From Branchiostoma floridae (Eukaryota; Chordata; Leptocardii; Amphioxiformes; Branchiostomatidae): a stretch of 64,000 nucleotides of DNA. The stretch covers positions 13,904,851 to 13,968,850 of the forward strand of contig NC_049984.1 in NCBI RefSeq assembly GCF_000003815.2, in the 5' to 3' direction. Shown one piece after another: positions 3,701-48,522 of this stretch; positions within the stretch are counted from its first letter, which is position 1; each line of letters opens with the position of its first letter. The position numbers were made by a program, and so were the translations under genes. The notes under the pieces were generated by a model. The model saw only the letters and a program-made list of their open reading frames with translations. It did no database searches and was not told where the DNA came from.

Positions 3701-4872
3701 TTAGAGTGAGAGAGAGACATACATCAACATAATGAACATACATCAACATACATTTGTATTCAGTGGTATTTTCTCTCATGGTCTTTTACCTACTTTTTGG
3801 CATTGATTTATTGATTGTTTAAAGTTTGGAGAGCTTATCTAATCAATCATCTGTCACATCCTGAGATGAAGGGGCTGTGGTTGCATCACCTAGACTCTTC
3901 TCTCGGACTGATGAACGTTTGAGTGGATCTTAACCCTCAACTGTGCTCCAACATCATCCGAAGAGCAGCTAATGATGAATAATCAGCTCTCATGGATATA
4001 GAATCGAGTTAAATTAGTGCTGGGTCCGTTCCATATAGGGCATGCGTTACATAACTTCATGAGATTAGATTTAATGGATATTTGTTCAAGCGTACCATTT
4101 CTGGAATGACATTGATCTTTGACTTGGCACTAAACACATAATGGAAAGATCATAAATCATCCAAGAGAGAACAAAACTAACAAAAAAGTAATTAAAGTTG
4201 CTGCTATATATACTTATGCATCGTAATGTGTCGTAATGTGTCACTACTAAGTTATTTACTCACACACGCAACATTGAAGAAGACCTGGGTTTTTCCCAAG
4301 ATTGTGAGTTATGGAAGTTGGTGCCTATGCCAGATTTTATACGGTAGACAATATTACTGGTAATCTGCTGTTGGATGAAGAAGATAAGATGATTTTGATG
4401 ACCTGATTATCACAGCCTCTTCAATTTTACAACCAAAGACCAGCTGTCAAGGAATGTTGGCTAGGGGTATTCTTTCTTATTACTCTTATAGCTTTTAGAT
4501 GTTTTCTATCATAAAGAAACAACCAGACAATTAGGGTGTCCTGTCCCCATCACGAGGCAATGGTATATCCCACATGACAACCTTGCTTTTTTGGGGATAA
4601 AAAGGGGCCAGTTAGAAGCAAGTGGCCTTGTGGGCTGACCTTTTGTGACCCCACATCCCCCACGAAGAACAATTGTACACCTATTAATAACTACCTGACT
4701 GGTGGGAAAGTATGTTAGTGTGTTGTCATAATGATAACGCCATTAGTCAAACAGCAGATACACAAACGATCAATCAAGTCAGGATGTGGGAGATGTGTGA
4801 AGATCTGATAACAGACTCATGTACTCTTTTCAACTAGATCCAAAAGAGTTGGCACCTTTCTGTTTATATAAG
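714..4872. other. Non-genic stretch, no recognised gene
   Basis: I see no conserved coding segment here. About 1000-1830 is richer in G+C and CpG than its surroundings and has overlapping open frames on both strands, as a CpG-rich promoter or untranslated exon might. A (CAA)n microsatellite lies at about 2743-2768. The missing 5' exons of HNF4 could start in this region, but I could not identify one. Confidence 0.4.
1010..1830. promoter_or_regulatory. G+C/CpG-rich segment, candidate promoter
   Basis: Base composition differs clearly from the AT-rich flanks, with many CG dinucleotides and long frames open on both strands, which is a composition effect. It is the most promoter-like segment upstream of HNF4 in this window. 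No TATA box or recognised first exon was found, so the assignment to HNF4 is only inference from position. Confidence 0.2.
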
Positions 4873-5260
4873 CATGTTGATTTGATCATATGGATGGCAT
4901 CTGTGTATGCATCAAATTTCGTCCGTTTCCCAAAAAAAGTTTCAACGGTACTAAAATCATTCAAAGCCGCTGCAAAATGAGCAAAAAAAATGTGCACGTT
5001 GTGTGCCGTAGATTGCCCAAAAAAATTAGAATGTCATAGAATGCCAATGTAAAAGAAGAAGATGGAAAAGGAGAGAAATGAAGAATCTATTGTTTGATAC
5101 ACCATACTCTGTGTTCTCAATCATGTGTTCAACCTTCCTGACCGCTTAGATTTCGTACAGAAGGCAACTGTTTTGGCCCAACTTTTTTTATTCGCACGCT
5201 CTCATCAGATTTGGGGTTCCCAGAGGATGTCATCCATATGATATTATCAAATCAACATTG
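4873..5260. mobile_element. MITE, family A, copy 1
   Basis: About 388 bp bounded by inverted ends. The left end reads CATGTTGATTTGAT then ATATGGATG; the right end is its near reverse complement. A second copy in opposite orientation lies at 32564-32952 and shares the subterminal sequence, including a run GCGTGCGAATAAAAAAA. There is no coding capacity, so it is non-autonomous. The superfamily is not assigned because no clear target-site duplication was seen. Confidence 0.65.
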
Positions 5261-8200
5261 TTAAGTACAATGTGCAGGATTACTTGGTAGAGAACAATTC
5301 CTGGTAACGTTAAGTTATAAGCAGTAACATCTTTTTATTTTGATGTTGTTGTTGGATAGAATTAGATAGTGATCGCCATAATTACTACATGTAAAGTTAG
5401 ATATGATAACATGAAATGAAATAGGCCTGATCAATCTAAAAAGTTCAACTTATTTATTTGCTTTTCTTTGAAAGAAAAGACTTGGCCTGAGAGATAAATG
5501 AACGGAATATGGAAAGTGTTGTTAAGCCTTTACTTAAGGTTGAAGAACCAGAGTGGAATAAGTCCAAGTGATCATCCCCATTGGACAATGAGAAAGACTG
5601 AGGATTTGATGGGGAATTTTGAATGGGACAATTTAAAAAAAGACTTCCTAGTGGTACAATGATTTTAAAGAAGAAAGTTAGATTGAGTGTTATGAGGACA
5701 CGTCTCAGTTTCTATCTCCTTATTTGGGGTGACAAATAGATCTGTCGTTGTTTAATTTTTACTCTTGTCCCACCCTCCTTCCCTTTCTCACCAGCTTTTT
5801 ATTGCATCTAACCTGTATCTTGATACAAAAATAGTTCACTATTTCTGCTGAGCCTGCAAGCTTATTGATGACCCCTTGTATATGACTTGTGGTACATAAG
5901 GCTGATGAATTGCATAATTTGCAGTAACCTTGTTCTATGTGTCAGCCATAGTTAACTGTAACTGCACCTATGCATACTTAGTAAGACGACCTTAACATTC
6001 ATGCCACTTATTGATGGACATTAGGCCATTCAAGTCCCTTTTCAGCTACAGATGGGTACATATTCCACCTGTCAGTTTATTTGTTGGTTATAAATACCAT
6101 ACATCTGTAGCTTTAGATGTCAAATGTTCTATTCTCTGCATGTTCTTTTCACCAGTGTGATGTTTTTCATCCTCTTCATTCTCACCTCCTGGTCTAGGTA
6201 AGCAGCATCTCTCCCTGTTCAAACACTCTGTGAAGGCATGTATCGGGCTGTGCAATGAAAACCCAGTTGTGTGCCTTACTAGGGGTGCAAAATAGTTAGC
6301 CATTAACTATTGGTGATTGTTCGACGGCCAATCGGGATAACATGTTTTTCTCGCCGGCTGTACACACCTGTCAGTTAAAGATCTTTTATCACCTGGGAAC
6401 GTACCACTCCATAGTGGACAGGTATGGGCGGCTTACGTTAGAAATTCCTCTGTGGCTACACAGCATAAACCTTGTCAAAACATTTGAGAAATGGGGCAAT
6501 AAAAGGTGTGGTCCATACAGTACAACAATGGCCAAGGGAACAAAGTTTAAAGTTTTAGGAAAGTCAAAGTAACTGTGTAGATACACTTCAGACTTGCACC
6601 TGAGACCTTGTAAGGGAAGGTTCGCGGTGCTTTGGAACTTTTGAGTAGTAGAACAGGGGGGCAATAGTGGTAAGGTTGCTGTGGCCGCAATCTCAGAAAT
6701 CAATTGAGTAAGCATATTTCGCCAGCTAGCAACAGCGGCCACGACCTTAACGGCAAATTTACACAAGCAGGTTGGGAGGCAAATGGGAGCCTCGATAGAA
6801 GACCCAATCTCAGTCCCCTGATAAAAACCGCAAAAATAGTAGCGTTGTTTCACGATCCATCAAAATCCCGGCCGGCTTAAGACCTGGATGCGTATTTGTG
6901 GGCTGGGCAGTCAAACACACATTGCACTTCAGTCGAGTTGTTTCAGGCATCGAAGTCCTTTTAAATTGCCTTATCAGGTAAATGGTGGAATTTGTTCTTT
7001 ACCCTACTAATTAGACTTCGGATCTGCTAGTCTTTAAAATCCTTCAGAATCCGCATGGATTATGTCCATTGTTATGTAATCCCTGATGTAAAAATCTATT
7101 ATTGCAATTTAAGCAATGTGTAGATATTTTGTTGCCAAAGCAGGAAGTTAGGATTTATGTGCAGAGTACAGATTGAAATAACTTGGTTGGCCAGGTGGGC
7201 AGACTGTAAGGTCTGTTGTGTGAGTAAGTCGTTGGCTTTTGTACCAAGGGGCACAGTGTACTTCTCTTTAAACCAACACAGTGAAAGCTACAGTTGTAAA
7301 TCTTGGGGATGTTTTGGGGTAAAGGGTAGAAGTGAAAGCTTGATTGTTTGTCCGCTCCCCTTGATTGTGTCTGGAGGGTAGAGAAGTGAAGATGGCGAGG
7401 TTTGTAATAGGGTAAGTTTGGATCAGGTGCTGTCGTTTAAAACACAAGAAGTTTGTAATGGTTGTTACAGGTGATATTTGTAACATGTGTATCATCTTGT
7501 AATGTGTAATATCCTGAGGTATATCTCTACAGGCATTTCACTTTCTAAAGCAAGAAAAGTAAGCGAGGCAGTGCATTAATTCTAACATAAGTCTATAAGT
7601 TAATTGCGAACTCTGCTGCTTGTATAAACCAAGTCCAAAAGAAAGAATCGTATGATAAACTTTGTAAAAAGATCACTGCATGAAACAGTGTTACGGTAGA
7701 ACATTCCTTCCACAGTTTCTACCATTGTTGCAGCTTTCTCTGTCTTCAGACCTTCTTTGCTATCTGTTCTTTCAGCCATGTTTGGTGGATCGGACAGCAT
7801 GACAGGGTTACCCACCATCAAACCTCCAGGTATTCACAAGTTTCTCTCCTGATGCTTCACAGTTATACATCAACCTTTTAATTCTTTGTATTCCCTTGAA
7901 GTATGAGATCATTGAGGTCTTGCAGAAGTGTCAGCATGAGGGTCTATTTCAAAACTTACAGCCCTATTAATGTCTAATTGCAACAAGATTTGATATCATA
8001 ATTGTCCATAGCATATAACTACCAATGTGATCAATGAACAATTTGGTATCTGCATCGGATGCCTTTAATTTTTCTAGCCCGATAACCTCGGATTCTCACT
8101 CAGTAAGTTGGTAGGTGTGAGTGTGAACTAAGGTTCCTAGAATTTAACAATGTCCTTGGCTTGTAATGATGAATGTCTTGGTAAAGTCATGGTAATGTGT

Positions 8201-11093
8201 CAGGTTTGAAAGATGTTGAGAGAATGTTCAAAGAAAGTAAATGCTTCAATTTCTCATTTAGTTTTACCATAGTCACTCATCAGCCGCCCTCTTCTGGGCC
8301 TAATGGTCCTTTAGGAGACGGGGTGTCTCCATAGTAGCTTGGGGCAAAAACATTAGTTGCATAAGTATCTTATCTCGAAACTTTTGGCCTAGAAGACAGG
8401 ACAATTCCTCCTGTTGCAAAATACTTGACAATATGTACATCCCACAATCATGCATGAAGTGTGAATAGTTGGGATCAGAAATTGTATAACATTGTTACGT
8501 GATCTTTTATGATATGTTACTAATAGACGTTAGAAAAATGACTTTTTCAATGATTTGATATCCACTGCTTCTCATATATTGATGATTTTCAGCACTACAG
8601 AGCTAGTGGGAGTTAATTTGAGTCTCCTTGAGTATTTGGGCCTTTTGTGGTCTTAGAATTTGAATTCTCATTACCAGTACAAATATCGGACATCCTAGCC
8701 TAGGATGATGTTGCAAAAGACAAAACTTGAACTAAAGGTGTAAGGTGCTAGTCTCAAGAATTACTAAGATTAAGTCCTGAAATTCTAAATTTTTTTTCTG
8801 TTTCATGTCTGTAGCCATCTTTCAATTCCTGTCCATTTTATCGAGAGGTGAACAAACCAGGTACTTTGTTGTCGTGACACTCCGATCCACTCTACCCCAC
8901 AGATTATAAAGCTAACCCAGCCGTATCAGCGGTGTTTGAAAAGAGGGGGGCAACACAAAAGTAGAGCAAATATTTGTGAGTCCGATTATCATTAGTGACA
9001 CCAGCTAGTGTTTGATCTGACTTGAGTCAATTACTTTATCTTCTTGGAGTCACGGGACTAGTAATTATTTTGCTGACTGCAGTAACAAAATCAATTGACA
9101 GTTTCAAGATATCTAAGTTGTTGTTGTACAACTTAAATGCTAAAGAAATTCTACAGTTTTCTAAAAGATTTACTTCCATTTTTGAAGAAGATATAATTGG
9201 AGAGGAGGAAGGAAATGATTAGTACCCATGTTGAATTACTGTGTTGTTTGGCTTGGCGTAGATAAGTGGCTATTAATTAACGGGTAGAACTTTGCCTCAA
9301 ATGACATTTTTCTTGATCCAGTTCATTAAACTGCTACATGCGTTACTTTATAATGTCAAGATATCATTGGTCACTTTTCGCTCAACTGTTTGCAGAGCTT
9401 ATCGTTTTTTTTTCCAATGACGCTCATGCGTTGGAATGTTCGGGTGACCTGGAGGTCAGCGCAGGCAAATATCAGGCTCCTCACACGTAAGGTACCTTCT
9501 ACTCACCCACAGCGGCATGTTTTTCAAGTCATATTTGCATTAGTTGGCAAATATTTAAACATATTGATAAGTGCTTATATTCAAATGTCATATCTTGCTA
9601 ATAATTGAGAACACATTCACTGGCAGGTTAGAAAGGGGCGTGGCCTTTAGAAGATGTGTTAGTACATGCCATATAGCAGCGAAGACATACTTCTAATGGC
9701 AGCTTAGATTGTTATTTCCCATAGTCTCAATCTTGGGAGTATGGTTGTATGTATTCTCTCAGAACAAAATAACTGTGTATTCCTTTGTCATCTCAGGTGT
9801 GTGTAAATGTAGGAATCACAGTTAACATGTCTTTTTCTCTCTTTTGTTTGCGTTTGGAGTCAGAGTTCATTGTTGTGAAGGGCGTATCCCTTGAACATGT
9901 TCTGCCGTGCCCTGCACTCAAACAGCTTTATTTTATAAACTTAAGAAGGTCTCTGACCAAAACTGTAACAGTTCTTAAATTCCATGCTAATAACAGCTAG
10001 TTTTGCTGGAAATAACTTCCAAAAGTTCTTGATTTCTAAACCAAAAGTTACTGCCATCTAGTGTTGGTGACAAATAAACCAGTTGTTGAAATTAGTCTAT
10101 AAAACTAGAGGGGGTAAGTTGTGATTAATGGGGATGTCTACATGGCATTAGCCTGATTAAGTCACTCACAGACCCTCCCACCAAGTATCTTAAAAAAGGC
10201 TGAGAGTTTGTGTTGCACAGACTAATACAACCTTCAGCAAAATTCCCTCACATACATGTACATGTACAGTTCCATACTCACTCCCAATTTTTAACTTGGG
10301 CAGTGCTACTACTGTTCAAAGCATCTGCTACATGTGTTAACAGTGTATTCCAACAAGCTAAGGTGTTTGGGTGTGTCTTAAGTTATTGCAAGAGCCTTAA
10401 GCCACAGGAATGTAGTTACATTAGTTGACACGGGCCCTGTTGACTCTGTATTGTGCGGCACTGTGGTGAGTAAACAAGCCGTTCTGCCGACAGGCTGGGC
10501 CTTTTCTTAGTAGGGACTGACCCGTCAGTTGAACCTCTTTCCGGGTTTGAAGTTGGCCGTGCTGAAGAACTGTAGGAAGGACAGGGCTTTTATTTGAAGA
10601 CATTTCAGCACCACGGAGATGACTAACAAGGAGAATAGAAGGAGGCCATCTTGACTGCTTCAAAAAGCTTTTATGATCAACTGAATGTACTCTAGCTTAA
10701 GCTGGCATGACAATCATATATTAGCAGATCTATAAACTTGTATGGATCATTATAACATTTGAAAGTATAAAATAAAGTCAATTTACCCCCCCCCCCCTCC
10801 CACAAACACCACCACCACCACCATACACAAACAAGTGGAATCAGTATCAGTTCAGTATTTTTCATGCAGTTTTTTTTTTATAGACAGAAGATTGGGACTG
10901 TGGTTGTCTGTGTGGAGTTATGTGGAGCAAAAATTTCTCATTTCAAGAGGGCATGCTTGTTTATTTTCCCATTTGTCAAATTCCTAAGATCATTTTTCTC
11001 CCTGTAACCTGTTCCATGATTCCTTCTGTCCCTCAGTGGTAGTTATGAAGCTATGATAAATCCTAGATCCAATGCAGTGTCGCATTTTATATA
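5261..11093. other. Non-genic stretch, no recognised gene
   Basis: Several frames of 70-150 codons occur, the longest on the minus strand at 6389-6853, but none has recognisable motifs, splice context or family resemblance. At about 6670-6750 there is an imperfect inverted repeat containing GTGGCCGC. A poly-C run followed by (CAC)n lies near 10788-10822. It may be 5' intron or upstream sequence of HNF4. Confidence 0.4.
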
Positions 11094-21602: not shown

Positions 21603-24600
21603 TCACCACACAGCCTCCCCGATACCAGATGGATGGTTGGAGAAGGCGTGACGTTTGCCGTCCTTCCAAGGTGACCTCTTCCTCCGCTTCCTGTCATCCT
21701 CCTCATCTTCCCACAGTTCATCAGAGTCCGAGTCGTCCAGGGGGTCATGGATCCTGCGTCTCCACTCCCAGAGCCCGAGTACACCATCCCACTGTAGAGA
21801 CACACAGCACACACATGCATACATCAACTACATCAACACAACAAGCACACACAACTGTCTGAAGCCAAAATCATACATCCACATTGATCAAACCAGTTAA
21901 AACTTTTTCTATATGAAAAGACATCTTTAGCACACTTTCTGGTGAAACTGAGGAGGGTTTGGCACAAGAATACTAGACAGGTTGACGGGTCTTTACCGAA
22001 GACATCGGAGTCACAATCAGAGTCTTGATAATCGTCAGATCTCCTTTCCCACAGCCCAACTATACCATCCCACTGTGCAGGTGAAACAAACAGCATCAAA
22101 TACACTACCATGGCCACACAACAGCAAAGGTACATGCAAATACATATGTTCATTTACATTAAGGGAAGATATATCTGTAGCTTCACCCTTCATAAATGTT
22201 TAAGTCTTCTGCCATTGCATTTTTTCTGAATTATCTTACCTTCAGCCTGGTGCAAGAGATTTGACAACTTTGACAAACAAACAGCATCAAATACACTACC
22301 ATGGCCATATAACAGCAAAGGTACACACAACTTTTGTCAATATCTAAGTTTCCTGCCATGGCATCTTTCTGATTGTGTCTTACATTCAGCCTGGTGCAAA
22401 AGATTTGCTAACTTGACCTGAAGCTTTGTTACATTCATACCTCAGAGCTGAAATATTTGTCTTTAACAAAACTCTATAAAATCGGCAGCAATCTTTCAGT
22501 CCTCACATTCCAGTCATCCACATATCAACCACACAATCTCTTAAGGTATAACAAGTCCATTGAAGATTTTTAGACATCACTTTTACACACTTTTATCAAA
22601 ACATGTGACTAAAAGTATGACATCAAGCTCTTCATATATTGCACGTCAAAGACAATTGACCAAAGCAGATATGATTGTAAGTAAGAACTACAGCATACTG
22701 ACCCCTGTGCTCATGATTTTGGGTTCATACGGATGCCAGGACACGTCCCTCACACAGGCCTTATGTCCCCTCAGCTTCTCCACTATCTGCCCAGTCAGAA
22801 CATCATACACTGGAAAGGGAAATTAGTCAATGAAAAATGTGGTACCTTTGCTTCTTTTCCTTGCCTTTTGTGTCTTACTACTATCTTGACTCTTGGGAGT
22901 TAAACATCTAAGTAAGGTTGATTAGTAAAGTTGTCATAAAAATTAATTCTTATCTCCAATTTGAAGGCTGTCTCAAGGGGGTTAGCAACATAAGAATCAT
23001 TCTCAACCTTATTAGAAAATGAACAGACTTCACTATGTCCACTGTCAACACCTGTCATATTTTGAATAAATTGTGTTGAGATAGTAATTTTATATTCAGC
23101 AATCTTGATTGTGGCAACACAATTTTGTACAAAATAAGATGAGTGAAAAACTTACCAACAACACTCCCTGTTGAGCAGCCACTGTAAATGAACCTCTGTA
23201 ACAAATCAGATAACATGTATAACATATACATTGTGATTGAAAAATTGAGCAAAACTGATACAACTTATAGATTGATACCTGATGTGTGATATACATGCAT
23301 TTTCCTATCAATATAATTTTTTTTTTGTGTGCAGTAATTCCCAATGAAACAATCAATAGTCCCCTAATCCAGTGCCCACCTGTCCCGTAGTGTGTACAGG
23401 TGAGAAGCGACACCTGACCAAGGTGTGCAGGACACCGTGCCCCCTGTAGGTCATCAGGGAGGTGTCACCGGCCAGCCTGGCACTGCTTGTTCGAACTGAA
23501 ATTGAGGAAAAACATAATGTCAAAAATTATGAAACAAACCTTTTCCCTGCCCCCCTTCCTGTCTTCCTACTCTAAAACTTATTTCCAATGAATGAAGCAA
23601 TCAATGACAGGGAGGTACTTTAACAGACATGAAACAATCAGATATTTTATAATAAGTTGGTGGGACATATAAATGTTCTGTTGGAGTTCCATACAGTTCT
23701 TGACAAGTTCACCAGGAGGCGTAGTTAAACAGTAACTTGTACCTACCTCTTTTTGGCACAGGTTGCCACCTGTAGTCCCAGTTCTGATTAGCCACTGCTC
23801 TTCTAGAAGCCTGTAATGTAGACAAGTCTGATGATAAACACACTTAAACCACTTTCAAACTGATAGTAAAGATTGTTTAAGTGCCTTGAAGTTTCCACCT
23901 AGTAGGAGGTATACTCTAAAGAAAGAGTGCCATTTTCTTCTTCAGAAACAGGGATATAAATCTATGCACCTCCAACCCCTCTGGAGGGGAGAACTTCCTG
24001 ATGTCCCACAGTTTGATGGTCTGGTCCTTGGAGTTGGAGATCAGATGTCGAGCATCCGCCTGAAAGGCAGGGAGAGGGCATTTGTTTGTTTGAACCTTTG
24101 TTTATTCATGAAAGCTCAAATAGGCCTACAGGCCACTTTTCATTAAAGTCATGAGGGAATAGGTAAGGGTCAGAAGAAATATACATATATTTGTAACAGA
24201 GGTACAGTTTACTTTGTAATAAGTCTATACACATATTTTACACAATCATATATGGTACACGGTACATTTACAGATCCTCTCAGATCTGAATGTACCAGCA
24301 ATGGGGACTTGGTATAACCATAACACATAGATTGACAATGCATAACCATTGACATGTTTACACATTTACAACTGCTGGTAATTACAGGAGAAGAGAAGGA
24401 GACAGCAGAGCATCATCCCAACTGTTCCTCACCTTGGAGTCGATAAACGTGATCCCGTCGGAGTGCCCTGCCAGCGTCCCAACGGCGTTGGGGCTGTTCT
24501 CGCTCAACATTCTCCTGTCCCACACACGACACAGCCCGTCATCGCCCCCGGAGTACAGGATCTGTGAGCTGTCGTCTGCGTACGCCACGGCATTCACATC

Positions 24601-27600
24601 GTCTTCATGGCTCTCAATCTGTCAGGGACACAGACAGTTCAGACGGTATTGATAATGTTCATCCTAAATTCATGTTGGTACTCATCACTTACCAGTAATG
24701 GTGCAAGCAAGCAACTTATCGGTTGACAATTTACTTCCTCCTCCTCTCTACTGTATTTGGATATCTTTGACCATTTTCTGTCAACTCAAATTTGTGCAAT
24801 CACGATCATTATGACAAACTGGATGGCTCTAAAAATTCTGAAAACACTTCTGGATGACAGAAAAAAAACTGGCTTTACCTTATACCAAAACTATCTCAGT
24901 CAATACTAAAAAATTGGCTATTTTGAGCTGCATATATACTTACCCGTAATGTTCGTTCATTCCTCTCTCTGTCATAGATGTACAAACATCCATCGTTGGC
25001 CCTGTATGAAACAGAAAAAGCTATGCCTATCAGATTGGTGGTATGAATGGATAGAGAAATCTCATAAAGAAAAAAATCATGGCTAAAGCATTTTATGAAA
25101 CTGTTCAAAAGTCAGGTACATATGCAGACAGACTACTCACCCCCCGAGTACTTCCTTATTGTCACTGGAGAACGTTAGGGAGAAGATACAGAACCGCCGC
25201 TCACTGGGACTAGAAATCAAGAACGACATGACAAACATTTTAGTAATCATATCATGGAACCTTGTCCTAAGAAGAAAAATATGGGTTAACTTTGGGACAA
25301 ATTTATGCCAATGTTTATGTCACATTCCTTTTCTACTGTTATTGTCTCCATGTTCAAATAAAAAAAAGGTTTCATGTTGCTGTGATGAGAACAATAAACC
25401 TATCAGTCTTGTCCATTTTTTAATTTTAGACATTCAAAGTAGTTGGGAAGGAACCTACTTCAAGTCCAGGGCTATGTGAGTCTCGTAATCTCCATAGATG
25501 TTGCATAGGTGGACTGTGAAAGGGTGAAACAAGTCAGCAAAACACAAAAATGTACTTGTCTTGTAACTTTAACTATCAAAGGTAAAACTCAACAAATGAT
25601 TTCATATTGAGCCAGTTCCATCAGTATATTATACCACAGATCAAGGGAGTGTTCTCCTAAATACAAGAATCATATCTTAGAATGTCATTGCAATTATACT
25701 TACTGGCATCAGACCAGCTAGAGTAGATCAGGTAGCAGCCATCAGGACTGGAACCAAAACACACAAGTTTTCATGGTTATCCCTTGATAGTCCATGCACA
25801 CATGTATAAGGTTTTATGTCATACCTGTGACGTGAAAACGTTCTATACGGGTGTTCCGGACCGTGTGATAACTTTACGTATCACACAGGCTCAAAGTTTG
25901 TATCACGCAGGCTTCCTTGGAGTAAATTGAACCATTTCGAGCGGGACGAGTGCGGCACGGTTGGCAATTCGAATACCTGATTCGGACGTTGGAACATTGC
26001 TGTTGTAACACTTTTTTTGTTCGAGGGCACCAAATTTGTTCAACTTCTGGCGCATTTCGCATCAAAACATGGGTTTTCTCAGGTGGGTATGATATAAATA
26101 AAATACAACACGGTGTATTCCGCATCCCCCTTGGTCCCAGCCCTGCCGCGGGTCGGGCTGGTACCTCGGGAGATACGGAATACACCGTGTTGTATTCTAT
26201 ATGTATAGACAGAACTTACACCTAATATCATGTATGTTACAAGTATGTTCTTTAATAATAAATAAATAATCCTTACAAAGGGTTCCTGATACAACACTGA
26301 ATTGTATCTTTTGCATACATGTATATGTAAATATTATATGGTTTTGATAACAAGTTGTGTTGGTTCAGTAATAAGTGCCTAAATCCCAGTCACTTTGCTG
26401 CAGTACTGATTACCTGAAGGCTGTGTCCAGGACGCTCCAACCCACGTCTCTCGCCCGGATTGTTCGGAACTCCTGGAACTTCCCATTGCCTACATTGTAT
26501 AACCTGATATTCTGATCTGTAACAGGGAAGTAAATAAGAAACACTGTAACTTCTCAAAGCTTCAGATCCAAATTAAGATGGCAAGTAATGAAACATATAT
26601 GAAAAAGGAGGTTTTGAAACAGATGCTCTCTATATCTACTGAAAGATATGAGAAATGTGTTCATTTTATTGTTCATCGACTTAAATGTGTCAACAAGATA
26701 TTAATGCCATACAATACAAAAAGTACCAAATAGCAATTACATACTATGATGTTTTAGCTCCAAAGAGGAAGGATATATTTCTGCAAGTAAATATGGTCAT
26801 TGTTTTCTTCTATAAAAGCCACTTTTACTCTATAAAGAGAACTCTAGCAGCAGAAAATGGCACAAACTGAGTCTACTTAGTATATCATCACCTCACTAAT
26901 AGTATCTTAAATACCATTATGGTGACTGAATACTTATCAAAATTGTAACATGTCTATTAAAAGTATATTTGCATTTTCAGCCTTAGTCAGCACATGTATC
27001 TATATTGTACGTATGTAAGTTACAAGTTACTTACAACACTTCATGATACTAGTACCAAATCATGGAACAGAAGAAACATTGAAATAAACTGAGACCAAAC
27101 AAAGATACCTTGGCAAGCAGAAAGGAAGACCGAACCATCCAGTGAGTACTGTCCACAGAATGCCTTGTGTCTATACTGAGCCATGGTCTGCATGGAGTTG
27201 GGCACAAAACTGTTCCAAACACAACAAATAAATGAACACAAATTAAACTAAAAGAATACTTAAACACAAGACACCTCTATACTGTATACACTCCTACCAT
27301 TTGGAGCGAGCAAGAGAATCATTGAATATGGGCAGCATTTTTTTTTCATTTCGGATGTCAACATTGCTAAGTGTCAGCATTAAAACAAAGCAGCTGATAA
27401 GACAGCAACATTATAATTATGACTGTCTAGTATCTAAAACAACTTTGCTACAGATTACTACAAACATTTTACCTAACAAGGGAGACTAAAGAATAATATT
27501 TCAATATTTCAACTGTTTAAAAATAGAGGTTTCAACTGAAGACCTTTAAAATTTTTCCCTTCACAGCTCTCTGCAATGGTAAGAATACAGACAGTACATT

Positions 27601-30600
27601 TTCACACATTCCCTTTGGTAAATTTGCACATGTTCTGTTTCTACCACCTTGGCACGCTGAGAGGAAGACAGAGCCATTGTGTGAGTACTGCCCACAGAAG
27701 GCCTTGTGCCAGTACTTGGCAACTGTCGTCATGAAGTTGGGTAAGTAACTAGGGAAGAGGAACAGACTGTTAACATCATCAACAATTCATGTCTGTTGGG
27801 AAATGTAACTTAAGGAGTAATGGAGATCTGTATACCACACTCACTCACCCATCAACTCTTAATGGGCATGGGTAATGCTGTATACTGAATGAATGTTATC
27901 AAATTACCAACAGAGTTGAACAGACACATTTCATTCAGAGGTACAGAATTTGTGGAGAACTTAAACTTACTTCTCAGAGAAATGTCTCTGAAGGGTCAAT
28001 CAAAACATTAGGAGCTTTGGATGAGGTAAGGATGCATATATTTCTAATAGATTAAAAATTAAATATAACTGATACTATCATATCAATACATGTAGCTGCA
28101 TTATTAAAAAGGAAGAAAAACATAGACAATGTCATAAACAGCCTTTTTAAAAGGACAAAGAACAACTAAGGCTATGCCCACATGGACTAGCTTAAATTTA
28201 AATTTTAAGGAATTCTCATTTTTCCAGCAGTGATGCCCACAGTACCTGGACCCAATCCATGAGCACTGTCCACTGGTGAAGCCATCACACCTCTTGGGAA
28301 GACCAACTTCTCTCTGGAACAATGGAAACATCAGATCAGATGAGAAACTAAGTCCAAACAAAGCCTACGTTCAAATCCCAAAACGTTGATACTTATATCA
28401 TGTAAACTTGCTATCAGATGACGGTTTTAATGTCCAGTATAAGGTGATGAACATAACCCACCTGTTTCAACATCCGAGTGATACATGCTTGTGGTTGCCT
28501 GAAGTTCTGTGCCCTTGCTGTAGCTAACAACACCTCCTGTTTGAAGTCACTGTCCTGCAAGGCCACAAAATGTGATTATCAGTCCACTAAACAGCTAGTT
28601 TATGCTGAATTTCTCCAAAACATTGTAGATACTGTGATTGCTTGGAATTTACATTTGCCTATGACCATGCATCCAATGATACTGAGCTTGGTTATGTAAT
28701 ATTACTAATAAGATAAGTATTCTCTACAAAGAATTCTCAACCTTCCAGTTGGCTTGCTTGCTTGACTTAAGCCATTTATTGTATTTAGCTCTCACTACAG
28801 AGACGCTGGCGGACTTAGGTCCACTTTACATTACGTTTTTCGCGTTAGCGGGACTGGCGTTAGCGGGGCTGCGTTAGCGGGAGTCCCGTGTAAAGAGAGT
28901 TCCCGTTAACGTAGTCCCGCTAACGCCAAATTTTCTCCCGTCCACTCCGAAGCGTACGCCCGTAGGCTCAGCGGGAGTCCCCATCAACGCCAAACTGCTT
29001 ATAAAGAGAACACGTCGGGCTCGCGTTAGCGGGAGTCAGGGTTTAGACGTTTAGCATAAAGTGCACGCTTATTAGCATATGGCGCGAAAATGGTGGGTAC
29101 AGATTTGCAAAACATTGGAGGAAAATTGCCAGCAGTGATCATGTTCATAACGCTGGGTATTAAAGAATACAGTGATAAGAAAACAGTCTCCCGATAGTTA
29201 CTTTTTTATACACTAGTAGAATGAATGTCAACCCAAAAATCAACCCGAACTACGCAGAAAAAATAGTTTTCACGGCCTGCCTTTGCCGTAATGGCCACCT
29301 ACGCAGGCTCTTACGTCAATCGGGTCTGCGTTCAAAGCAGGCGGGATGTCAGCGAAAAATAGTCTCATTTTCACATTTTTGGACGACCTACTTTTGCACA
29401 ATTTTCGTGGAAGACCTGTAAAAAAATATACAAATTCGATTCCAAATATTTTCTCCTGCAATACATCATTATGTTGTAGCGAAACCAGAAGCCGCTATCT
29501 CTGCAAATTTTGTATGAAGTAATCCCATTACGCGTCTCCGATTGGCCGTTGCTATGACATTGCTGGGGAAATTCCCGCTACATGAACTGCTGGCAGCTTG
29601 AGTTTTTACGTACAAGGTAGTTATTATACCTGCAGGAATTATGCGTATAGTTCACGGTTATTTCAGTACTGGCCATAATTTAGCAGGTCATCACTGAAAG
29701 AAAGAGATCTTCTATCAAACAGTTCGCTTTGAAAGGGTTTTTAAGTGCTTTTTTATCGAAAATTTTGTGGTCGAAGTTACCGGAAGTCTCAGCGAAACAA
29801 CAACAACGTAGTCAGGGACTTGTATTTCTCATGCAAGTCACGTATTTGAATCTTCAATCACTTGGTAGCGGTACGCAAACAAAAGATTAACGGTTGTTCA
29901 ATATAACAACGTGCAGCTAAAAAGAACTGCGATCTTTACGGGTAGACTTTCACCAAGATTTTACATTCCACCGCGCGCCGCGGGTGTCCTGTCAGATTTC
30001 CGGGCGGTGTGTCTAAAGAGGTGCCAATAGCGGCGTCCCGATAACGGGAAATTTACCGCTAACGCGAAAAGTAAAGTGGGCCTTAATGTACCTTAATGAA
30101 CCGAAAATGAAATGTATCGACTTCCAACATCACAGTCAATCAACTGCCATTTTATGATGCTTTCCTTATCACATTCACATACAAGAACTCTACGTAAAAA
30201 GGAAATAATTTGAACTTACATCTAAGGTCTTTGTATCAGGCTGGCTGTCACCTACATGGAAAAATCAGACAGGGAAAGGACATACCACAGTTAATGTTAA
30301 TGAAAAATCAATATGAAATGGGGTTGATGTTCACATTGGGAGTAATTATACCACACAATATGTATTAGAAAATCATTGTACAAATGAAACATTGATTAAG
30401 ATTTTACATTATTTCCATTTATGAAAGGACACTTCAGTGCTTCTCCTTGGGGCTGAGGTAATTGTTTCTGTTGTCTGGGCTGTATTTTAACCTAAGTTTA
30501 ACAAACTGATAGATTTATAAATTTGGCATGTTTTATCCCAAATATTTTCATGGAAAGTTGAATTTACTAATCTCCAAGCAGATTCCTCCGGTGGCATAAA

Positions 30601-33600
30601 ATAGTAACATAAGCTGGGGAAGGACTTTAGCCGGCAGAGGACTCCTCTGCCGGCTAAAGTAAAATTAAAAGGTTAAAGGTTAAGTAAAAGGTTAGAATTT
30701 ACAGCAAATCCTTTACAGTAGCCAAAAGTAAAACTAGGATGTTTCTTTCATGAATAGTTTTTATCAGTTTGGTAAATCCTAGCTGACATTTTGTTGACTG
30801 TGAGGAAAGTAACAGTATGTCTGCAACATGTCAGCTAGGTGTTATCTATTTGGTTTTGTTAGTTTCTTTCTACATCATACACATTCACAGGGAACACTGC
30901 ACTGTCAGGTGATGGACTTTCCTCCGTGCACTTTAAACATTTATGACATAATTTATCAGTGCAGAAGAGCTCATACGTGCAGAAGAGCATGTTATTATGC
31001 ATGCTCAGCGAGCAGAACCATTTATGAGTTCATTGCCCTGAAATGCCCCAGCCTCAGTGTAAGGTGCAGGTGAAGTGTCCTTTGTTATAATTAAATCTGT
31101 TGAAATACATATCATCAAGACTTGTGGGTGACCCAAGACGACCCCACAGGGTTTCTAGGCTGTTGTTGAGACAACAACTTCATACTACAGGGCATTCCTA
31201 GACATTACATGCTACTAGTATGACTAGTATGAGCCCTGAACTTTGTCCTAATGACACTTGATATTTGAAGTGTCACATAGTTAGATGTAGGAAGAGCCTG
31301 CAGTAACAATGAAGCTATTGTAGAACTTGTCATAGTAACAACATATTTAAAATGTGAACATTTCAACCTAATTTTCATGTAAATGTGTAAAGCAAAGCAT
31401 AGCTTTTCTGGAGTGCACACTTCTCAAACTTTCCTACCCAAAAAGGATAAGATGAAAATAAAATCCAAAGGAAGAGAAAGGAAAGCAACAGGAGTAAAGA
31501 AACTCAAGCAGGCAAACTTAGGATTCCTTTTCTACCTTCGGGGCAGCATGCCTCGGAACACGAGGTGGGGTCGTCTTCGTCACTGTCGGAAGAGCGAAGG
31601 AGAGCTATACCTGAACCTCGCGTCTGGATAAGTCGTACCTGCCCACTGGAAACACAACGACAACGTGCTAGACAGTTACACCACTTGCACCTGGAGAGGA
31701 ACGTGTGGCAAGTTTTTTCTCACGTAATAAACTACATGGACCTTCCTGATATAGAAAGATTGAAAGGTTATGATCAATGTCATCATTATCTGTATAATAC
31801 ATGTAGATATACAATAATCATATCAAAGAATTCAACTATGCATACAATAGTCAACTGTTGTCAAATATAGTATATTGTAAATGCAGAAACTTTTGCGGTG
31901 GTTTAATGTTCGCGGTTTTCGTGGTGGCTGCTTCACCACGAACTTAAAAGCACCGTAAACATTTTTCCATAGCAGGAGACTACAGTGCATGGTGCTACCG
32001 CGAACTTAAAACCTCCACGAAAAGTCCCTTTTCCCGCTACCACAAAATTAAATCCCTGCAGACTTAAATGCATTTACAGTAACTAAACAGCAAGCAAGAT
32101 GCAGCCCTGCTCCATGACATAGCAGTTTTCTCACTGCAATGACAACAAATCCTTTTGTTACCTGTTGGCACATCAACCACATGCGGCCACACCAATGGAG
32201 GAAGGCAAATAAACTAGTTACTAGCACTATAGTACATAGCTGAGACAGATCTTTGGCTGATGAAAGTGCATACCAGTTTTCGTAGTCCATCATCTATGAT
32301 GACTGTATCTGTGTATGGGTATGGGAAGAGTTGTGTCACACTTGGATTATTAGCATACGATGAATACTTAGAAAAATTCTTGTCACCTCAGCAAGCAATT
32401 TTCCAGTTGAAAAAGCACATGTATTCAAACTTCAATCACCAACAGTGCACACCCCAATTCTTCCCAGTCTGCCTAAACACCTCATCAAATGACCTTAAAC
32501 AACCTCAAATGACTCTAATATGTAGTGTACATGTGGTAACGTTCTTGTATGGCACTCTGGATACATTGTTTATGCATTGATTGATGACATGTTCTGGGAA
32601 TCCAAAAACTGATGTAAGCGTGCGAATAAAAAAAAAGTTTGAAAAAAAAAAAGGTGCCTTCATTCTGAAATCTGTACATGTTCTGGAAGGTTGAAGAAGT
32701 GACTGAGCACACAGAATGTAGAACAATTTTACATTCTCAATTTTTGTTTTTTCACACCTTCTTCGACCTTGAAATGTTCTTTGAAATTAGTATACATTTT
32801 TCGATATTTATTTTTGCAATACGCGGCATATCTTTCCTTATTTCAAAGCTGCTTTGTACGATTTAGAGTATGGTTGAAGACTCTTTTTATCTTTGAAAAT
32901 GGCCGAAAATTGATGCACACGCGGATGTCATCCATATAATCAAATCAACATGGCCTTATTTCGAATTAATCCGCTGGGTTTCACTCACTCATTCCCATAG
33001 CCATTAGCCATAAGTTACATAACAGTTGTTAAAATCCTACTAACTCAAATCAAGAATATATATTTTGTATATATAACGTTAGTCGTTACATTTGTTATGT
33101 GGGATATTCTAACCTGAGACTTTCAAACAGAACACAGATCAAATGGCTGCTCATGTTCCCTCACTGTGTCCACACAAACAGTTAACTGGTATTGCATATG
33201 GCAAATGTTTACATGGAAAGTCACCAAACTTTTTATGATTATGCAATAAAGAATCCATGAGTAGCAGCACATCTATTGCATGATGATGCAATGTATTTTT
33301 GGTGGGTTATTAAAATCAAAAGATAAAGTTTATAAACATCTGTCTACATTAAGAAATACCAATACGAGTAACAGCAGCTGTGCAAAAATTGTGCCAAATC
33401 GCTGCATGAAATAGATAATACAGTTTAATAGCTTGTTGGTAAAGGTCAACAACTGTCAACAACGGCACAAGGTCTAGTTTCATGAACACAAATGTAGCAC
33501 CTGTTTGTTTGGAACATATGCAACATACGCAACATGCCAAGAGCCTGAAACATCACAACGTCATGGTTTGTTCCAACAAAAACAACACGGGGGAGGGGTA

Positions 33601-34002
33601 AGACGGTATCCCGTCGGTTTTAACCCCCCAAGCCATCTCTACCCACCACTAGTGTTGTTTTTCTCTCTCGAGCTCGTGTCGTCATAAAATTTGCTCCACA
33701 TTTTCTTGAGCATTTCCTTGAACAACAACAATCCACGGTGACTCTACGATCCATGTTAGTCGTTAGAAACAAAGTGGAGAGTCGACTGACCTCCTCAGCA
33801 ATAGAGCCAGGACTTGTGCGAGATCAAAATCTCCAGAATCTGAGTCGTCTCCGGAGTCCGGCCCTGAGCCAACCCCCTCCCCCTCAGCCCCCAGTTCCCC
33901 TTCTGCCACCTCCCCAGTCTCCCGGCTTGTCCCTGCGAGAACCTCGGGGTCTTCTTCCATCGGTGTCGGTCTCCTGGCGTCTCTGGAATATCTAGAGCCC
34001 AT
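21603..34002 (-). CDS. DCAF11: DDB1- and CUL4-associated factor 11 (WDR23), complete
   Basis: WD40 substrate receptor of CUL4-DDB1 ubiquitin ligases; the family is known to target NRF2/SKN-1. Exons in transcript order: 34002-33791, 31645-31536, 30251-30220, 28554-28462, 28313-28246, 27748-27648 (or 27209-27109), 26516-26414, 25747-25704, 25513-25459, 25209-25141, 25001-24944, 24618-24433, 24059-23970, 23810-23747, 23495-23380, 23195-23156, 22809-22703, 21791-21603. These sum to 579 codons (578 residues) with all phases matching. Signatures: an acidic N-terminus then FDLAQVLALLLRR, ARDVGWSVLDTAFS, LGGANDGCLYIYDRE, SHEDDVNAVAYAD, ISNSKDQTIKLWDIRKF, QNWDYRWQPVP, TYRGHGVLHTLVRCRFSP, HKACVRDVSWHP. 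WDXR motifs (WDRR, WDIR) used by DCAFs for DDB1 binding are present. The two GTCAGT donors are slightly unusual. It is convergent with HNF4 and divergent from ANO10. Confidence 0.95.
21997..22072 (-). CDS. DCAF11: Alternative 3' exon of DCAF11
   Basis: A good acceptor (CTGCACAG) is followed by an open frame beginning WDGIVGLWERRSDD. This parallels the start of the standard last exon, WDGVLGLWEWRRR (21791). Both follow the exon at 22809-22703 in the same phase. It has a GTAAAG donor-like sequence after 76 nt, but joining from there to the standard last exon would break the frame. Read on without splicing, the frame runs to a stop at 21833. It is either an alternative terminal exon or a decayed duplicate. 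Confidence 0.55.
22083..22418. repeat. Diverged tandem duplication in DCAF11 intron
   Basis: Two copies lie at about 22083-22269 and 22274-22418. They share AAACAGCATCAAATACACTA, then CCATGGCCA, ACAGCAAAGGTACA and, further on, TTCAGCCTGGTGCAA. They directly adjoin the duplicated terminal exon at 21997-22072, so local tandem duplication is ongoing or recent at this end of the gene. Confidence 0.7.
26102..26196. repeat. 95-bp imperfect palindrome in DCAF11 intron
   Basis: The left arm begins AATACAACACGGTGTATTCC and the right arm is its reverse complement over about 47 bp with a handful of mismatches, with the centre near 26149. The first 21 bases match exactly. Single-stranded DNA or transcript could form a long hairpin. 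A smaller palindrome, GTGTGATA...TATCACAC, lies at about 25863-25886 in the same CpG-richer patch (25830-26200). It looks like a fold-back element, though no superfamily is assignable. Confidence 0.75.
27109..27209 (-). CDS. DCAF11: DCAF11 mutually exclusive exon, version A
   Basis: 101-nt exon with acceptor AACAG and donor AAG|GTATCT. It encodes 33 residues beginning FVPNSMQTMAQYRHKAFCGQ and ending SVFLSACQ, the start of the first WD repeat blades. It has the same length, phases and position in the protein as version B (27648-27748), and 24 of 33 residues agree. Including both would shift the frame because 101 is not a multiple of three, so only one can be used per mRNA. Confidence 0.8.
27648..27748 (-). 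CDS. DCAF11: DCAF11 mutually exclusive exon, version B
   Basis: 101-nt exon with acceptor CCTAG and donor AAG|GTGGTA. It encodes YLPNFMTTVAKYWHKAFCGQ and ends SVFLSACQ, then joins in phase to DQNIRLY of the next exon. Version A at 27109-27209 occupies the same slot. Differences cluster in the first half (R/W, Q/K, S/F) while the second half is nearly invariant, suggesting selection on the WD fold and divergence on one face. Confidence 0.8.
28818..30082. mobile_element. Non-autonomous Harbinger-like DNA transposon in DCAF11 intron
   Basis: About 1265 bp with inverted ends. The left end, GGTCCACTTTAC then TTTTTCGCGTTAGCGG, matches the reverse complement of the right end with a short indel. Both ends are flanked by TTA (28815-28817 and 30083-30085), the target type of PIF/Harbinger elements. 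The left subterminal part repeats GCGTTAGCGGG several times in both orientations. The only open frames are under 70 codons, so no transposase is present. The superfamily is inferred from the TTA duplication and the GG-starting ends. Confidence 0.72.
30624..30660. repeat. Perfect 37-bp palindrome in DCAF11 intron
   Basis: Two 18-base arms, ACTTTAGCCGGCAGAGGA and its exact reverse complement, are separated by a single C at 30642. It lies in otherwise AT-rich intron between the exons at 30220-30251 and 31536-31645. No flanking duplication is evident. Confidence 0.9.
31875..32079. mobile_element. MITE, family B, copy 2 (TA target site)
   Basis: A 205-bp relative of the element at 11094-11301 in the same orientation, with ends TTGTAAATGCAG and TGCATTTACAG, flanked by TA at 31873-31874 and 32080-32081. 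Internal CCGCGAACTTAAAA and GTTCGCGGTTTTCG motifs are shared. It is more decayed than copy 1, with several CpG-to-TpG type changes. It lies in the first coding intron of DCAF11. Confidence 0.8.
32564..32952. mobile_element. MITE, family A, copy 2 (inverted)
   Basis: Reverse-oriented relative of 4873-5260. The right end GGATGTCATCCATATAATCA and subterminal AAGCGTGCGAATAAAAAAAA match the reverse complement of copy 1. Its left inverted end is partly decayed. It has two A-runs but no coding capacity, and lies in the first coding intron of DCAF11. Confidence 0.65.
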
Positions 34003-45612: not shown

Positions 45613-48522
45613 TCAGTCATGGCTTGTGGGGAGGTTGACGCCCCTGTCACGGTAGAACCCCTTGAAGACATGCGCGACTCGCACGTACTCTCCCCGCATG
45701 GGCGGGTCGCACGGTCGGTTTAACAAGAAGCCGTACTGAGAGGAGCTCCGCAGGGGCACCGCCTTGGAGGTCTCCTGGAAGTTAAAACCATAGTTGGGAC
45801 ATCCAGTGCAGTTAAACAGGTCCAGAAACGCCAAATCTATACAGGTCAAAATATTAGTTACAATAAAATCTATCATTTACTAGCTCTTGCTGTCCTTGGT
45901 GCTGAATATGCCATCATATGAACACACGGACAGGTTTTGCGCGACACGGTTTGGGACCTCCAGTTCTGTTAAACAGCTCTAGAAATGCCAGAGAATTATA
46001 CAAGTCAAATCATTATTCATTTATCTATTCATCTCAAAACGGGTGGGGCCCCAGGGACTTTTGAAAGTTGATTTCCAAGAGGCCCCGCCATACATGTCAA
46101 CAAGACAAACAACGTGTTACAGTCAGTCAATGTTATATAAAGACACCAGTGGACAATATACAGTAGATCACATGAAAACCGAGGCGTCAAAACAAAATCA
46201 GTGTCCATTTCATCAATGAGATTTCATCAGATAAAACCTCATTGATTTCATAGTCGTAAACGTTCAAAGGCCAACCCGAAAAGTTACGATAAAATACAGC
46301 GTGTTACTAGCTTTCACTGTCATTGGTGCTGAATATGCCATTATCTGATGAACACACGGACAGGTTTCGTAAACTATGGAACACTGAAACATCAGTAAGG
46401 AGAATAACACTTATTTGTGTTGGTTCAGACTGCAACAGACCAAGATACAACTTGACTATTAATACAATACCCCAACAATTTTCCTGCTGGGTGACATGTT
46501 TAAGTAGACAATGAAGGGAAGAGTAGGGTTACCTCCGCGTGGACATTGAGCCCCACGGTGTGCTGTCTGTCATCACGGTGCAGCTTGCTGTTGTAGTCAG
46601 ACTCCTGGTTAAACAGACGTTCGTACGCACTTTTCTCTTGATGCTGGCAGGAGAAACAAAACAGGAGAGTTTGTCACAACATTTCGAGGGCAAATTTTTA
46701 AAAAGCCTGTTCTCTCTCTACGTCCGTGCTGTCTGTGAGTGCATGAAAAAAAATCCAATCAGATATCCCTCGTCTTTATCGAGTATTGTATATTTTTACA
46801 TTTCTATAAATGTGTAACAGAACGTGTCGATAGAACACAGTGGAGCGTAGCGAACGGAGTTCGAGAACGAATAGAACGTTACCGGTATCTTATGAAAATA
46901 AAGGAGAGTTTGGTTTGATCGTCTCACAAGACAGACGTGTCGTCAATTCCTCCGACTAGTTGTGTTACATATCCAACATTGGTGGCAGCGGTGGGATGCC
47001 GCTTTCGAGCGGCCGGACCCGTGATGAAACACCATCCTAGGCCCTCTGCCCGCTACCGTGTCGCCCGACTCGCCCGGAGACCATCGGCCAACCGTCTGAT
47101 CACCCGACAACGTCTACCATGTGTCCAGCCGTCTCCGCTCGCTGTCGCTGACGACAAAGCCCGACTCCGCTCCACCCTGACACCGTCCGTCACTGACCGC
47201 GTGTACCTGAGTCTCCTGTAGACCATGCCGCAGTCTTCATGGCCCGACCCAACTCGGATTTCACACCAAGGACCCGCTCCTGGACGCTGTCCACCTCGAT
47301 CAAAGCCAACCTTGAACTTTTGAGAATGAGCACCGGCGCAAACTTCTGCTGTGACCTGACCGAACTGCAAAAGGGCATCGACTTGCTCCAGGAAGGCCAC
47401 TAACTTGTCATTCCGCAAGACCTACGAACTTGAAATGTACTGCTGCACGATGTCCTGTCCATAATATGTTATGTATTTTGTCTGGAGAGTATTGTGATAT
47501 TGAGTACTGTGGTGCTTACCTAGGAAGAACAAGAGCCTTCGGGACGACACTCCTAGGAAGAAGGCTACTTTCCCCTTTGTCAGAACCTGCGAGGTTGCTG
47601 ATCATGGAAATACTGTCGCAATGATTGAATTTTGTGCATTGAAACTATTTGAACTGATGCTTACCAAGTGTACCAGTAGAATCAATGACATTATTGATGC
47701 CTGTGGGACGACTACTGTATAAGACTATCCTGACCACGCTGAGGGTGTGATGTCGAATGACTATGTCTGTATGTATTAGTATAATGTTTGTGCAGAGATG
47801 TTCGTGCTCTGAAGTACTTTAAAATGTTCGTCGTTTGTCATGAGTTAAGCAGATAGATAAATACAGGCATTTGAGGGCAAATGCCAAAGTTTGTGGGGAG
47901 GAATGTAACAGAACGTGTCGATAGAACACAGTGGAGCGTAGCGAACGGAGTTCGAGAACGAATAGAACGTTACCGGTATCTTATGAAAATAAAGGAGAGT
48001 TTGGTTTGATCGTCTCACAAGACAGACGTGTCGTCAATTCCTCCGACTAGTTGTGTTACATATCCAACAAATGTAATATTTACTTTCCACCTCTCCACCC
48101 ACCTCTTTGTTGTTATTGTAGACCGTCATGTTAGATTTCAGCATTTCCTCGGTCAGTACGATGTTAGGCTTTCCCAGCCTCCCTCGCGTCGCGAGGTGGT
48201 TCTTCTCCAGCCGTTTTTCACGCTGAAGAGACGGTTAGAACATGCTGAACATTTAAAGTTAACATCAACTTCCTACTTATACACACACTGTTTCATCTTT
48301 GAAAACAATAAATACAACATGTCTATTTCCTCATTCCTCACAGATTATGAAAACGTTTCTATTTCATTCCAGCCTTGAGGCATTAGAACAGAAGTAAGTT
48401 CTATGAATGGTGTTGTTGCCTACATTGACGTACTCCTGCCACTGTAGTTTCTGCTCGCCAGGTGACCAGTTCTTCAGACCGTACATGGACATCTTGTGTG
48501 TTCCTTCCCCTGGGTACGACAT
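45613..48522 (-). CDS. Small axonemal-type protein resembling CFAP90/C5orf49
   Basis: Four exons (48522-48424, 48222-48103, 46643-46533, 45774-45613), all phase 0, give 163 residues. It starts MSYPGEGTHKMSMYGLKNWS. The third exon has SAYERLFNQESDYNSKLHRD and DRQHTVGLNVHAE. The last exon runs SSQYGFLLNRPCDPPMRGEY, then HVFKGFYRDRG. The order Tyr-Asn...KLHRDDR, then S-x-YG...N+P, then HV..FYR fits my memory of CFAP90 (C5orf49), a ciliary microtubule-inner protein, but the N-terminal half is not recognised. It has no signal peptide or membrane helix. An earlier acceptor at about 45855 would break the frame, so the GAG at 45774 was chosen. A young LTR element lies in the second intron. Confidence 0.72.
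45797..46370. repeat. Duplicated exon-intron fragments in the last intron
   Basis: Segment 45951-46015 is a diverged copy of 45797-45850, which holds the upstream part of the terminal-exon region: on the minus strand both read CTGTTTAAC after a GGC(A/G)TTTCT block. Segment 46303-46370 repeats 45873-45943, sharing TTGGTGCTGAATATGCCAT and GAACACACGGACAGGTTT. This suggests old local tandem duplication of the end of the gene. Confidence 0.6.
46813..48069 (+). mobile_element. Miniature LTR retrotransposon (TRIM-like), complete, young
   Basis: Two LTRs of 166 bp (46813-46978 and 47904-48069) read identically. Each begins TGTAACAG and ends CCAACA (TG...CA), and contains AATAAA. Right after the 5' LTR is TTGGTGGCAGCGGTGG, a likely tRNA primer-binding site. 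The 3' LTR is preceded by the purine tract GTGGGGAGGAA. AATG flanks both ends (46809-46812 and 48070-48073). The 925-bp interior has no reverse transcriptase, integrase or gag; it starts G+C-rich with only short frames. It therefore needs enzymes from an autonomous relative. It lies in an intron of the axonemal-type gene. Confidence 0.9.

Follow-up and report, generated by a model that had tools for sequence, protein, structure and literature searches.

Does the DCAF11/WDR23 gene of the lancelet Branchiostoma floridae encode one protein or two? The question is raised by a 64,000-nucleotide stretch of contig 6 (NC_049984.1), called the window throughout, in which this gene carries two similar versions of its exon 6 one behind the other, an upstream copy (U) and a downstream copy (D). 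The arrangement of the copies, their reading frame and the pattern of their differences make it likely that exon 6 underwent an old tandem duplication in lancelet DCAF11, and that the two copies have been kept as a mutually exclusive pair. Under this reading each productive mRNA would carry either U or D, and the gene probably makes two protein forms.

U and D have the same length of 101 nt and the same phase, and share exon 5 as their upstream and exon 8 as their downstream neighbour. They are identical at 76 of 101 nucleotides and at 25 of 34 residues when the split serine codon is included (24 of 33 whole codons). The initial annotation of this DNA had given the coordinates, lengths, phase and whole-codon identity exactly, and the two junctions that it named, 28246 and 26516, do correspond to the exon 5 donor and the exon 8 acceptor. 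When U alone or D alone is joined to these neighbours, an open frame of 564 amino acids results. An mRNA with both copies runs into a stop in exon 8 after 233 residues, and one with neither copy into a stop in exon 9 after 193 residues; the last junction lies 905 and 823 nt downstream of these two stops. Because double inclusion and skipping both shift the frame and stop early, a full-length protein can come from exactly one copy only. Transcripts of these two kinds would probably be subject to nonsense-mediated decay. The frame argument of the initial annotation thus holds, but its conclusion that either-or splicing is forced goes too far, as the spliceosome could still join or skip both copies.

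The likeness of U and D is not due to chance, an explanation that we considered and rejected on three grounds. In a self-comparison of the window by blastn the two exons match with an E value of 7.6e-15. Their 60-nt flanks are identical at only 18 and 17 of 60 positions, about the level of unrelated sequence, and the introns around them have no similarity. Finally, a control scan for tandem, exon-bordered, open pairs was run on 20 control stretches of this genome, together 200,000 bases with 23,211 N, under criteria that were written after the U/D pair was known and that miss pairs with insertions between the members, exons 19 and 20 of this gene among them. The control stretches held 153 similar tandem pairs, five of them exon-like and the longest of these 17 codons; the window held eight such pairs, of which one, U/D, was exon-like, with 33 codons.

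The differences between the copies bear the mark of protein-level constraint. Their 25 nucleotide differences fall on codon positions 1, 2 and 3 in the numbers 6, 4 and 15. The initial annotation had suggested the ratio of nonsynonymous to synonymous divergence (dN/dS) of each copy as a check; calculated pairwise between U and D it is about 0.1 (dN 0.157 and dS 1.50 by the NG86 method), in agreement with the LWL85 method (dN 0.158, dS 1.63), while the maximum likelihood estimate of dS ran off to 20.5. We also simulated, under a simple model, two copies evolving to 25 differences, with 3000 runs per setting, and counted the runs that ended with at most nine residue changes and no stop codon. 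No run qualified when both copies were free of constraint. When one copy was free, 3 runs qualified with the other held at a dN/dS (omega) of 0.1, and 9 with the other at 0.05. The count rose to 2244 with both copies at omega 0.1 and was 769 with the copies at 0.1 and 0.3. Fully neutral drift of one copy is thus unlikely under this model, and the constraint favours two working copies. Since dS is near saturation the duplication appears to be old, and since the flanks are unrelated it appears to be neither recent nor artefactual; if so, the pair is to be expected in other Branchiostoma species.

The gene itself was modelled with 20 coding exons, whose borders were placed by hand from the sequence (Table 1). 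Every intron of the model has a GT donor and an AG acceptor. The mRNA for the 564-residue protein takes 18 of the 20 exons, with either U or D present and exon 19 omitted. Its translation matches the PDB chain 9ptu_A, which is named DCAF11, with an E value of 1.8e-199, the next solved chain following at 6.7e-38; the database match names no species for 9ptu_A, which we assume to be the human protein. WD40 repeats are recognised by Pfam in the U form and in the D form. This near full-length similarity supports the placement of the lancelet gene in the DCAF11/WDR23 family, as the initial annotation had proposed, with further DCAF11-like genes in the same genome. Members of this family act as substrate receptors of the DDB1-CUL4 ligase and so select other proteins for degradation. 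Contact between DCAF proteins and DDB1 is made by the propeller together with a helical element at the N-terminus. A WDRR stretch in the lancelet translation fits WDxR, stated to be the DDB1-binding motif for DCAF11 (PMC13373504), and is a predicted site of such contact.

Table 1. Features of the DCAF11/WDR23 locus, in window coordinates.
Feature	Position	Strand	Remarks
DCAF11/WDR23 gene, coding part	21603..33960	-	20-exon model, frame open across junctions
Exon 5, shared upstream partner of U and D	28246..28313	-	donor at 28246
Exon 6 copy U (upstream), 101 nt	27648..27748	-	SYLPNFMTTVAKYWHKAFCGQYSHNGSVFLSACQ including split codon; borders ccctag / gtggta, frame open
Intron between U and D, 438 nt	27210..27647	-	GT-AG
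Exon 6 copy D (downstream; exon 7 in the 20-exon numbering), 101 nt	27109..27209	-	SFVPNSMQTMAQYRHKAFCGQYSLDGSVFLSACQ; borders ggaacag / gtatct, frame open
Exon 8, shared downstream partner of U and D	26414..26516	-	acceptor at 26516
Exon 19, 76 nt, candidate duplicate of last-exon start	21997..22072	-	WDGIVGLWERRSDDYQDSDCDSDVF; AG/GT borders
Exon 20, last coding exon	21603..21791	-	gene model

Relatives of the gene were sought by a six-frame search of the genome assembly (513 Mb, 431 contigs) with a 207-residue query containing U. Of its 13 matches, seven belong to the window gene itself and three to a paralogue with introns, here called P1; contig 15 has two more and contig 4 a weak one. P1 lies on contig 6 at about 10.074-10.082 Mb, 3.8 Mb from the window gene (loci L010, about 4460-9930, and L013, 2593-2670). 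Its exon 6 is present in one version, of 101 nt and in the same phase as U and D, with the donor GTCAGT; no second exon 6 of P1 was seen among the matches listed, which include the P1 loci. On contig 15, at about 21.470 Mb, lies an intronless DCAF11-like gene with an open frame of 502 amino acids and one version of exon 6 (L012, 2652-4160, reverse strand), and at about 21.460 Mb a second, shorter intronless copy of 290 amino acids, without the exon 6 part (L011, 4081-4953, reverse strand). In their matched parts the two intronless copies have 56 and 67% identity to the window gene, and they lie about 44-54 kb from the contig end; the longer one looks like a retained retrogene. Over the 34 residues of exon 6, U and D share 25 with each other, whereas P1 shares 19 with U and 20 with D. 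The intronless gene was tried as a record of which copy had been spliced, and it gives no answer, with 20 residues in common with U and 21 with D.

Against this background a different account has to be weighed, in which one copy only, probably D, serves in the normal protein and the other is a relic or rarely used. Some observations speak for it, and others more generally against the reading as a mutually exclusive pair. The evidence for either-or use is the DNA sequence of one lancelet genome. The donor of U (GTGGTA) matches the U2 consensus GTAAGT at 2 of 6 positions, the lowest value among the 19 donors of the model. The donor of D, GTATCTTTG (window 27108-27100, reverse strand), agrees at 7 of 9 positions with the U12 consensus, the best of the 19, while that of U agrees at 2 of 9; were the D donor truly of the U12 type, U and D could not both use the shared acceptor of exon 8, which would favour use of one copy. 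Thirteen positions of exon 6 are invariant in 9ptu_A, P1 and the longer intronless gene, and U and D differ at two of them, positions 2 and 25: D keeps F2 and D25, and U departs at both (F to Y and D to N). Partial relaxation of one copy is compatible with the data, as 254 of 3000 simulated runs qualified with the copies at omega 0.1 and 0.5. Lastly, a tree of U, D, P1 and the 502-residue intronless gene over 34 codons does not settle the branching, the log-likelihoods lying within 0.1 of each other. Inheritance of the duplication from an older DCAF11 family had been considered and set aside, given that the two relatives carry one version each, and this tree leaves a loss in a relative formally possible. 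On the other side, U has no stop codon, no change of length and intact AG and GT borders, dN/dS is about 0.1, and free drift of one copy rarely gives so few residue changes in the simulations. As for the D donor, we read it as a weak U2 site, and the best match to a U12 branch site before exon 8 (6 of 9) is at chance level, being reached at 1125 of 3000 random places. Use of a single copy appears to us unlikely, although it deserves to be kept in mind.

Two further accounts are of much lower probability. The pair might act mainly as an on/off control, in which decay-targeted double or skipped transcripts set how much DCAF11 is made, and in which it matters little that the two proteins differ. 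In favour of this, both aberrant forms meet a stop over 800 nt ahead of the last junction, and seven of the nine replacements are at positions that also vary in relatives, but a dose switch needs no second coding copy with conserved residues, and we consider this very improbable. That the assembly has placed two alleles of one exon side by side is scarcely credible. Lancelets are very heterozygous, which makes such an artefact conceivable, but 25 differences in 101 nt and unrelated flanks speak against two alleles, and when the 640-base region was searched against the assembly at the DNA level, its single match was to itself. A mutually exclusive pair kept from an old duplication is the reading that we carry forward.

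If U and D are used one at a time, splicing regulators that work on donors of rather low strength would probably decide between them. The donors of exon 5, U, D and exon 8 are all without G at position +5, which 12 of the 19 donors of the model have, as does the exon 6 donor of P1; this pattern, noticed after the fact, suits regulated exons. Double inclusion or skipping, where it occurs, would lead to an early stop and probably to decay of the transcript. Steric crowding, in which the branch point lies within about 50 nt of the upstream donor, is an unlikely cause of exclusion. The copies are separated by an intron of 438 nt, in which the AG-free zone before D covers 36 nt; judged from these two lengths, a branch point at the usual distance from D would be a long way from the U donor. 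For incompatibility between U2 and U12 splice sites the signs are divided, with a U12-like donor at D and a chance-level U12 branch-site match before exon 8. Competing RNA pairing of the Dscam type gave no convincing signal in a scan of ten segment pairs: the two best, both involving the intron between U and D, were matched by 6 and 7 of 100 shuffled sequences. Shuffles did as well in 9, 12 and 11 of 100 cases for pairings between the beginning of exon U and an element after D, and between an intron-5 element and one place common to the two exons.

What would the two forms do differently? The nine replacements are at positions 2, 3, 6, 8, 10, 12, 14, 24 and 25 of the 34. The initial annotation described them as clustered in the first half of the exon; seven of the nine do lie in the first 17 positions, a mild trend (hypergeometric P 0.06). 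By the WD40 repeat pattern, positions 1-14 presumably form the approach to strand a in blade 1, and positions 24-25 its a-b turn, which places seven replacements in the segment leading into the blade. The run at the start of blade 1, KAFCGQYS--GSVFLSACQ, is common to both copies, and seven replacements affect positions at which 9ptu_A and the two relatives in the same genome are not uniform either. The proposal that a swapped blade surface could change the choice of substrate is only partly supported: the blade start is shared and most of the changes affect positions that vary in relatives. Our preferred functional reading is that exon 6 may lie at a hinge between the ligase and the substrate arm. 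The two isoforms might then have the ligase scaffold in common and differ in the linker that connects blade 1 to the N-terminal region, as well as in a single turn of the blade; such a difference might adjust how partners bind or how the substrate arm is oriented.

The gene may contain a second, weaker duplication at its 3' end. Exon 19 matches the start of exon 20 with an E value of 2.4e-5 and a last-exon-like stretch of P1 with an E value of 6.9e-6. Spliced before exon 20, it would give a protein of 542 amino acids with another C-terminus and a stop in the last exon. The intron just before exon 19 contains interleaved short direct repeats (22084-22134 with 22275-22325, and 22195-22270 with 22339-22414). 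Elsewhere in the window there is a direct repeat of 166 nt, 100% identical, whose copies are 1.1 kb apart (46813-46978 and 47904-48069).

Mutually exclusive tandem exons are a well-known kind of gene structure. An atlas of human examples lists 377 clusters (60%) whose exon length is not divisible by three (PMC5740500). U and D resemble the pairs of that atlas in being adjacent, internal, similar, of equal length and frame, and of a length not divisible by three; they differ in host gene and lineage, and in being known from DNA alone. The IIIb and IIIc exons of FGFR, reported as mutually exclusive in amphioxus, are likewise a chordate exon duplication, whose either-or use affects the binding domain of a receptor, but the FGFR duplication has been dated to a time before the chordates split and is under Esrp control (PMC5703972); for the DCAF11 pair no shared origin and no regulator is known. 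In OGDH a duplicated pair, exons 4a and 4b, also swaps a short protein stretch, and its exclusion is enforced by branch points, which in human are 25-41 nt from the upstream donor (PMC7969005), in contrast to the long intron and short AG-free zone of the lancelet gene. In full texts under open licence in PubMed Central (PMC) we found no paper on DCAF11 together with Branchiostoma, or on WDR23 with a mutually exclusive exon, annotations and subscription papers being outside this scope. A pair of this kind in DCAF11 thus seems unreported within that literature, although an annotated one may exist.

Isoforms of DCAF11/WDR23 are themselves not new, and have been reported to differ in part in location, substrates or use by degraders (PMC13373504, PMC5428976, PMC6692315). 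Human isoforms differ by residues 45-70 (PMC13373504), and those of the worm differ in the N-terminal region (PMC6692315). The known variation is thus N-terminal, whereas the lancelet pair is at the start of the WD40 domain. We can imagine, as a possible though doubtful extension, that lancelet DCAF11 is a combinatorial receptor in which the exon 6 pair and two C-terminal tails give up to four receptors with differing preferences for substrate or location, plus the paralogues. DCAF11/WDR23 regulates NRF2 (PMC5428976), and the protein is used by degrader drugs (PMC13373504). If the pair is used as we propose, nature would offer here a ready comparison, two receptors that differ where the propeller begins, from which to learn which residues in that part decide the choice of partner.

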